A DNA stretch of 64,000 nucleotides from Lampris incognitus (taxonomy: Eukaryota; Chordata; Actinopteri; Lampriformes; Lampridae): the NCBI RefSeq assembly GCF_029633865.1, contig NC_079216.1, positions 63,864,107-63,928,106 on the forward strand, given 5' to 3'. A program made the translations under genes and the position numbers. The notes beneath the pieces are model-generated. The model made no database searches. It was not told where the DNA came from and was given only the letters and a program-made list of their open reading frames with translations. Each line of letters starts with the position of its first letter. Positions within the stretch are counted from its first letter, which is position 1. Positions 44,201-47,200 of the stretch are shown here, one piece after another.

Positions 44201-47200
44201 CGCTGGACAGTGTGGTGTTAGCCACGCCGAACACGTCTCTCCGGCGGCGGTCTGGAGGTCTGGAAAGGAGCAGGTACGATGAGCTAAATAGCTGCGTTAA
44301 AAAGTCTGCGAGTGCTTTATGACGGTGACAGACAAGGGAGGGAGGGGCGGGACGAAGGCGGGGGACGTTCACCGTGTTTCGCGCTCTGCAATAAAGACGA
44401 CAATTAGGCACAAAGAAGAAGCCAGCCGCCGAATATGTCCTGAAAAACCTTTTAAAATCAAACAGGACAGAGTACAACATGTTTGTGACGAGCAAAGGCG
44501 ACATAAAGATGCTTCAAACGGGGGGGGGGGGGGTGTGTGCATAAAGATAATGTATAGTGTGGTGACCCACATCTATATAACTAGAGACATTCACCTAAGA
44601 GAGAATGCACTTCCGCTTCCGGTCCAGAGAGTTCAGTGTCGTTGTCGCGCCGTTGTCGATGCGTCTAACGCCGCCACTACGTGGAAGTACTGCGTTGCAT
44701 CCTGCGTCATCCCTCTCAGCTGGAACTGGGCTTCCACATGTTGAAACCACGGCCGTGGATTATGCTGCCAAAAGTCGGGTAGCTTCACAGTAGCGGTGTA
44801 AATGCTAGCGTTAGCAATAGCCACATTGGTGACCCCGACGTGATCGAACAACTAATACGAGTATGTTTGACAACGACGACGCCGGTGCTAACAACATGGC
44901 TATTGCTAACGCTAGCATTTACACCGCTACTGTGAAGCTACCCGACTTTTGGCAGCATAATCCACGGCCGTGGTTTCAACATGTGGAAGCCCAGTTCCAG
45001 CTGAGAGGGATAACGCAGGATGCAACGCAGTACTTCCACGTAGTGGCGGCGTTAGACGCATCGACAACGGCACGACAACGACACTGAACTCTCTGGACCG
45101 GAAGCGGAAGTGCATTCTCTCTTAGGTGAATGTCTCTAGTTATATAGATGTGGGTCACCACAATAGAATGTATAGGAGGGAACCCAGTTCAGATCCTCGC
45201 CTGAGCACGTGTCTGGGAATGTGGTAATGCTAGCTATACGGCTAACGGTGATTTCATGGGGCCCTCCGGTGGAACATCGGTGAGCTTACAAGTGTGTGTG
45301 TGTGTGTGTGTGTGTTTGCACCGACACCGATGAAGAAGCTGGAAACAGAAACAAGGAAAATAAACGAGAGACAAAAAAAATCCAAGTCACCGATACGACC
45401 GCCTGCACGGCGTGCTTCCTTTTGTTCTGGGTCGGTGTTTTATGGTCTCTCCATCCTGTGCCGTGTCTGTGTGTCTACCGTGTCGGCCCCCCCCTCTAAC
45501 TGCTTGAGATTTCGGGGGGGGGGGTGTGCGACGCTTCCGCCAGTCCCGGGTACCCAGGCGCCCTTTCTCTGCGGCGCGGCGCAGACAGTTGCGTGCTCCT
45601 ATGCAGGGGCGTGGCCCCGAAACCAGGCGGGAGAGGAAAAATGGAGGCGCGGAGATGCAGAGAGAACGTGCTAGAGAGAATCTCATCACGCCCCGATAAG
45701 ATACCGACCCCCCCCCTTCCTGATCCTTATCTTATAATAGGAAGAACCGACACGGCAGTGGTGTCTGTGGCTGTGAAATATAAACCTCTGAAAAGTCACG
45801 GACGACCACACCTTTCGGAAAGACATGGTCTGCACACACACGAACCTAAATTGTACTGACAATGTATTTTTCATGACTTATTGGGGAGAGTGTGGTGAAC
45901 ACACACAGACACAGACACACACACACACACACACAGCCATGTCGAGGACAAAGTCACAGATCCGGCTGGCGCTCGTGACGCAGGCACCACCAGACACAAA
46001 CGAGTCATCTCACCGGTGGCTGCAGCAACAGCAGTAGCACACCACACGCTACACCGCCGTTTTTTTTTTTTTTAATAAATTTATTTCTGATTTTTCCCTT
46101 TTTTTCTCCCAATTTAGTGGCCAATTGATCCCTATTTTAATTCAAACACCCACCCTCGTATTGCATGCGTTCGCCAACTGCATCACTCCGGCCGGCAGTC
46201 TCGAAGGAAAGCGCCTCCCCACTTTCGTGACAAGGCGACTCCAAGCCGAACCACTGTTCCTCCGACACACACAGAGACGCATTCACATGACGAACACAAG
46301 CCGACTCCGCCCCCCCTCCCGAAGACAGCGTTGCCGATGATTGCTGCTTCATCGAGTCCGGCCATAGTCGGATCTGACGAGACCGGGGCGCGAACCCCAG
46401 TCCCCAGTGGGCAACTGCATCGACACCAAGCCGATGCTTAGACCGCTACGCCACCGCGGACCTTACACCGCCGTTTAAACGCCACCCCCGACACGCCAGC
46501 GGCGTCGGGGCCCTCTCTGCAGGTGCACACGTAGTACCCGCGGTCACCTTTAGGAGACGCGTGACGCTCTGCGCGCTCAGGGTCTCTGGAAGTCAACGGT
46601 AAACGGTCGCAGGGCGGTCAGCTGAGACGAATGGACGGAGAGAAGAGCGCTGGCTCCGACAGAGTCGGAAAACGAAAGGCTAATCGATCCAAGCAAGTGG
46701 CCAGGAAACGGTCAAATCGGTGGGGCGACACCTGGGACCGCTACAGAACGCGAAGGTGATTAATGGAAACGTGACGTTAAGAGCCATTTAAGAAGAGGGG
46801 TAATTCGAGGTGACTGTGTTTTCTATGGCCTCCGCTGAAAAAGCTGGGTCGAAAAGACACGGCAGGGCGTCCGGGTGGCGGGGCGGTCTACCCGTTGCCT
46901 ACCGACACGGGGATCGGCGGTTCGAATCCCCGCGTTGCCTCCGGCTTGGCCGGGCGTCCCTCCAGACACGATTGGCCGTGTCCGCGGGTGGGAAGCCGGA
47001 TGTGGGTGTGTGTCCTCGTCGCTGCACTAGCGCCCCCTCTGGTCGGTCGGGGCGCCTGTTCAGGGGGGGAGGGGGAACTAGCGTGATCCTCCCACGCGCT
47101 ACGTCCCCCCCGGTGAAACTCCTCACTGTCAGGGGAAAAGAAGCGGCTGGCGACTCCACACGTATGGGAGGAGGCGCGTGGTGGTCTGCAGCCCTCCCCG

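Follow-up and report, generated by a model that had tools for sequence, protein, structure and literature searches.

The palindrome and its surroundings

The window (the whole stretch of 64,000 nucleotides analyzed here) contains on its minus strand an ORF at 43881–44504 that resembles chain positions 700–799 of human IGF1R (at about 43.97–44.27 kb; E = 1.2e-18), and another at 52037–52390 that resembles chain positions 636–705 (about 52.16–52.37 kb; E = 1.8e-21); a further IGF1R match (positions 542–579) lies in an ORF at 53.7–53.9 kb. Pfam returned no family for the ORF at 43.9–44.5 kb, and a structure search with the ORF at 58.0–58.2 kb returned no match. Because exon ORFs matching IGF1R stand on both sides of it, the palindrome at 44558–45162 is located in an igf1r intron. 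Its arms (44558–44823 and 44897–45162) match as reverse complements along 266 bp, with 2 mismatched positions (44648 and 44708) and no indel; of the 21 inverted pairs listed for the window, none is longer. The unit begins with TGTGG and ends with CCACA, and ATAG directly adjoins it outside on the left and on the right. Its computed RNA fold has an energy of −583.2 kcal/mol, compared with a shuffle mean of −190 (sd 8, n = 20). An earlier reading, made from the letters alone (the sequence-only reading), is thus borne out with respect to the near-perfect palindrome, the TG...CA ends with the flanking 4-bp duplication, the intron, and the strong potential RNA hairpin; its count of about three arm mismatches has to be lowered to 2. 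Its view that the unit integrated as one piece is accepted, ATAG being present on both sides.

AATGTATAG occurs on either side of the unit (44549–44557 and 45167–45175), and the pre-insertion target, with one ATAG kept, is a tandem AATGTATAG repeat. Elsewhere, the window carries a 68-bp minisatellite reaching its end (60388–64000; about 53 copies, 95% alike), which has long stop-free frames mainly on the minus strand, tandem arrays at 50540–51187 (41 bp, 15.9 copies) and 28964–29633 (about 113 bp, 6 copies, also with internal inverted repeats), dispersed repeats in opposite orientations at 15293–15617 and 46892–48206 (90–93% identity), and an assembly gap of 200 N at 58801–59000.

Composition of the unit

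The parent is a CsRn1-like Ty3/gypsy element, of which the host genome contains many ordinary copies: at least 115 matching stretches were counted when the best 40 of 1414 candidates were scored (the unit itself included; all counts are lower bounds), and 14 of the matches listed covered query positions 1–90 at 100%. The segment map below refers to one ordinary copy, L012, which lies at C22 in the host genome and consists of an LTR of 178 bp, then T, the primer-binding site (PBS) at 180–197, and the gag ATG at 216.

44554–44557, no strand: target-site duplication ATAG, left copy, read from the sequence (4 bases identical to 45163–45166)
44558–44647, plus strand: first 90 bases of the LTR (U3), plus sense (90/90 identical to L012)
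44645–44823, minus strand: gag start, inverted, from about gag codon 12 (179/179 identical to L012, parent 250–428)
44821–44825, plus strand: last 5 bases of the LTR, CCACA (parent 174–178)
44824–44896, plus strand: single-copy loop of 73 bases with LTR end, PBS, leader, and gag ATG (44863), colinear with L012
44827–44844, plus strand: PBS, pairing at 18/18 positions with the human tRNA-Trp 3′ end, CCA included
44863–45075, plus strand: gag start, plus sense, about 71 codons, DUF7041 domain (Pfam PF23055, E = 1.1e-12)
45073–45162, minus strand: first 90 bases of the LTR (U3), inverted (90/90 identical to L012)
45163–45166, no strand: target-site duplication ATAG, right copy, read from the sequence

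Segments, joins, ends, and duplication can be read directly from the DNA. The unit runs from U3 (1–90) through inverted gag (parent 428 to 250) and plus-sense parent 174–428 into inverted U3 (90–1), and both of its outer ends are thus U3 termini. There is no mismatch to L012 in either U3 segment or in the left gag segment, and 2 in the 255 positions of 44821–45075 (parent 174–428). At the join of U3 to inverted gag, TCG is common to both (a 3-base microhomology). At the central join, CCA is likewise common to the LTR end and inverted gag and cannot be assigned to one of them; therefore, 2 to 5 LTR bases were copied.

The PBS, TGGTGACCCCGACGTGAT, is the sole match in the window at up to 3 mismatches; it was identified with a human tRNA-Trp 3′-end oligonucleotide printed in a section of PMC6379413. 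A scan of genome contigs for CCACA plus PBS yielded one contig, L001 (NZ_QYYA01000011.1), a distant relative with which the PBS and its edge are also colinear. This contig is filed under Alcanivorax profundi and carries an element of animal type, with LTR, tRNA-Trp PBS, DUF7041 gag, RNase H, and integrase; it is apparently animal contamination of a bacterial genome. Scans of viral contigs for the PBS, for gag, and for the gag of L001 gave no locus.

The center of the unit is one single-copy stretch in parental order, namely CCACA, T, the tRNA-Trp PBS, leader, and gag ATG. The sequence-only reading had taken these 73 bases for two homologous, diverged gag N-termini, which is refuted, and because the stretch is single-copy and colinear with an ordinary copy, the argument derived from it, that the unit is not a simple snap-back of one molecule, falls as well. 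Gag is indeed present in both arms, but a gag N-terminus is not present in each half, and LTR U3 makes up the 90 outermost bases of each arm. The supposed left N-terminus (10 residues) is the antisense PBS and LTR end translated as codons; its likeness to the true gag start is weak (fractions of 0.0115 and 0.0285 of 2000 shuffles scored as well) and may in part stem from imperfect pairing of a folded-back end.

In a first model, the outer segment was regarded as the complement of R-U5 (minus-strand strong-stop DNA), with both ends of the unit being U5. This model was overturned because the first 42 bases of the unit match the start of the L001 LTR (local score 43; mean 21 and maximum 39 in 1000 shuffles), compared with a score of 22 against the reverse strand of that LTR, and the question was settled by the host copies. 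Bases 44600–44645 alone gave no match to L001 above shuffles; their identity as U3 is shown by the host copies only. The unit matched no Rfam family at gathering scores, and no tRNA gene was found.

Thirty further copies, taken from the best 40 of 826 candidates, show how the ordinary element is arranged; all lie on contig C1 and were chosen at 100% identity to a 109-base gag query avoiding both arm-difference sites, and they are not a random sample. U3, PBS, and gag are on one strand in all 30, none contains an inverted join, and CTCCACA followed by T precedes the PBS in 29 (1 unread). Among the best 40 of 774 candidates, the central join was matched over its full length only at the locus in the window. 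Genome searching, as the sequence-only reading had proposed, identified the parent element; the palindrome occurred once among the candidates scored.

Inverted joins and the origin of the unit

Aberrant reverse transcription of the CsRn1-like element, followed by integration of what it produced, is the most probable origin of the unit (probability about 0.75). Plus-sense cDNA starting from the U3 terminus would reach about 90 bases into the LTR, where its 3′ end would leave the minus-strand template and pair with gag RNA (14 bases, with one bulge and one G-T), and extension would then copy gag, leader, and PBS as minus-sense DNA. Copying would stop 2–5 LTR bases past the PBS, where RNase H would already have removed the remaining R-U5 RNA. 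Folding back, the 3′ end would anneal to the gag start through 8 pairs, including 2 G-T, and be extended along its own strand as far as the U3 terminus; the result would be a hairpin of 266 bp closed by a loop of 73 bases. Either pairing of two such strands or second-strand synthesis would convert the hairpin into a linear duplex, the two U3 ends of which integrase would join to a 4-bp-staggered target in the igf1r intron. We infer the order of these events, the RNA template, the action of RNase H, and the opening of the hairpin; joining by integrase is suggested by the termini and the 4-bp duplication. A cellular function is unnecessary to explain the unit.

The inverted U3/gag join is not confined to the window. 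When the best 40 candidates were scored in each junction search, a join at gag 415 was found at no fewer than five loci (C21, C11, C5, C1:18.81 Mb, and C12:7.32 Mb). Those on C11 and C12 read LTR-PBS-leader-gag-inverted U3 and are flanked by duplications of their own (GTAC and CTGT, respectively; C11 has one extra C within its last bases). Because both read LTR...inverted U3 with their own 4-bp duplications, two U3 ends were joined to the target there too; the same first join, followed by ordinary PBS transfer, could account for them. The locus on C21 (L011/L049, C21:46894507–46895126) is flanked by ACAT, has a U5 end and a U3 end as outer ends, and consists of an inverted LTR piece, a plus-strand piece, inverted gag, and inverted U3. 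The last base of its plus-strand piece coincides with the PBS end (parent 197); its fold-back, 8–10 bases into the LTR end past the PBS, falls on the best of 3 anchored sites listed (−8.5). At C5, the inverted U3 lacks its last 16 bases and no target duplication was seen by eye. The locus at C1:18.81 Mb (L054) has two ordinary LTRs and ACCG duplications with an internal join of gag to inverted U3; in its interior, inverted U3 plus CAGG is followed by a short stretch ending in a polypurine tract and then by the 3′ LTR. Including the window, 4-bp duplications are present at 5 of the 6 inverted loci.

In an identity comparison of the C11, C5, C1, and C12 loci with 28 ordinary copies (C21 and the unit in the window left out), C5 and C12 were closest to ordinary copies, C1 was as close to an ordinary copy as to C12, and C11 was marginally closest to C12 (96.7 vs 96.5). 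Judged by these identities, most of the inverted-join loci look independent, and C11 and C12 may share an origin.

The positions of the joins correspond to base pairing within the element. Among 11 anchored sites in a 717-base downstream piece of L012, gag 426, the join in the window, gives the strongest pairing with a U3 strand that stops at LTR 90 (−13.2 kcal/mol), and gag 415, the join at the five other loci, gives the second strongest (−12.7 kcal/mol). In 300 shuffles, the first value was reached in 4, and a second-best site reaching the second value was observed in none. Of 139 possible LTR 3′ ends, that at 91 pairs best, then those at 96 and 90. At the five other loci, the switch could run from gag to U3 instead (9 pairs by manual count), and the relative L001 has no counterpart LTR-gag pairing site at the matching place. 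With respect to the fold-back, in DNA folds of the last 90, 110, 140, 160, 200, and 260 bases, the 8 bases at the 3′ end come to lie on the site that was used. Counting against this step, the run-off end is off the used site in the full 342-base fold, the pairing probability of the site is about 0.20 in the 200-base fold, and its duplex energy (−5.0) is level with the fourth, the best being −7.5.

The differences between the arms bear on whether one or two molecules were involved. The left arm is that of L012 (ATG, GCG) and the right arm has ATA and GCA, both being G to A in the gag sense. ATA is the common form (26 of the 30 sampled copies, 4 unread), ATG occurs at two loci besides the window (C22 and C2:140.77 Mb), and none of 29 read copies has GCA. 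One template without later change does not explain both differences; either each arm changed once, or the right arm changed twice, or there were two templates. The last case would correspond to two cDNA molecules that shared one U3-gag join and were linked when synthesis switched between two co-packaged RNAs (an intermolecular template switch). The two differences as such, with ATG and ATA both being alleles of the family, speak for it, and the U3-gag join is a hot spot that two molecules could have in common. However, both arms use the first join site, the five other loci found use the second, and the absence of GCA from the read copies makes a later CpG change the simpler explanation, so that this alternative is considered unlikely. 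The unit looks young.

Other origins have less to recommend them. Inverted duplications through template switching are a known process, and both joins have 3-base microhomologies, as would suit a normal insertion made into an inverted repeat later by chromosomal replication or break repair; yet the right end is the exact U3 terminus at the duplication and not a U5 end, for which repair gives no reason, and C11 and C12 also have two U3 ends with their own duplications, which renders this origin very improbable. Even less is to be said for membership in an amplified non-autonomous (TRIM- or foldback-like) family: it would match the TG...CA ends, the 4-bp duplication, and the inverted-U3 copies at five other loci, but the structures differ at those loci and the central join is present in full length here only, among the best 40 of 774 candidates. 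Perfect inverted repeats are also a known artifact of some libraries, in which a folded-back read is built into a contig. In the present case, however, each arm stops precisely at an LTR terminus within a 4-bp duplication, the arms disagree at 2 sites, and the loop occurs as a single copy; an assembly artifact is therefore the least probable of these explanations.

Function and comparison with known systems

A cellular function of the hairpin (siRNA, ADAR editing) appears unlikely; the hairpin is probably a by-product unless data show otherwise. As a long shot, it is conceivable that, because the family LTR can pair with two neighboring sites in the gag RNA of the element itself, a palindrome in a transcribed intron would give rise to long hairpin RNA against the family LTR and gag, that is, to self-silencing by mistake. 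If true, reverse transcription would repeatedly be diverted into inverted products, some with two U3 ends, of which one would occasionally fold into a near-perfect palindrome, and the element would seed its own silencers. In any case, the hairpin offers a well-delimited target for tests of small RNAs or editing.

cDNAs that reach a dead end normally disappear, and it is chiefly laboratory systems that have revealed misplaced strand transfers and snap-backs. Here, several misplaced transfers appear to be preserved in one genome, 5 of 6 with 4-bp duplications, with the U3/gag joins falling at the strongest base pairing of the nascent 3′ end and two putative fold-backs (window and C21) lying a few LTR bases past the PBS. 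Template switching, the RNA end after RNase H, and tolerance of integrase for two U3 ends thereby become checkable from sequence. Among the titles and abstract openings listed, from literature that includes few subscription journals, a search on palindromic or self-primed LTR insertions and two-U3 integration revealed no matching case.

According to passages in PMC2582038, the CsRn1 clade is characterized by a tRNA-Trp PBS, a 4-bp duplication, and the Gag signature CX2HX9CX3C (CHCC), and CsRn1 elements, some with short LTRs, are mentioned for teleosts in parts of PMC11117352 and PMC4746887. The unit resembles this clade in its PBS (18/18 to human tRNA-Trp including CCA), in the 4-bp duplications (ATAG in the window, GTAC at C11, CTGT at C12, ACAT at C21, and ACCG at C1; all from inverted-join loci), and in the short LTR (178 bp in L012). 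The CHCC signature, C-X2-H-X9-C-X3-C, is present in the gag ORF of the relative L001; gag in the window ends before it. PBS and duplication fit a CsRn1-like parent. The unit itself, in contrast, is an aberrant product without pol and not an element.

Retroviral snap-back (self-primed) DNA molecules are usually unintegrated dead ends; the 3′ end folding back and copying its own strand is what the unit would share with them. In autointegration, LTR termini become attached to internal sites; the internal join described here lies 90 bases into the LTR instead. TRIM and foldback elements form amplified families of small size, bounded by TG...CA or inverted repeats, and the unit is likewise small and so bounded, but this palindrome was found once among the best 40 of 774 candidates. 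A further counterpart is reportedly a murine leukemia virus (MLV) provirus with inverted LTRs, described by Colicelli and Goff (J Virol, 1988) as integrated via two U3 sequences, which, going by its title, may be regarded as a precedent for two-U3 integration. The likeness lies in the two U3 ends with a target duplication (90/90 identity to the LTR start at each end, ATAG on both sides); as far as the title allows a comparison, the differences are that theirs is a retroviral provirus and the present one derives from a fish Ty3/gypsy element, with a 266-bp fold-back, inverted gag, a PBS loop, and related products at other loci.
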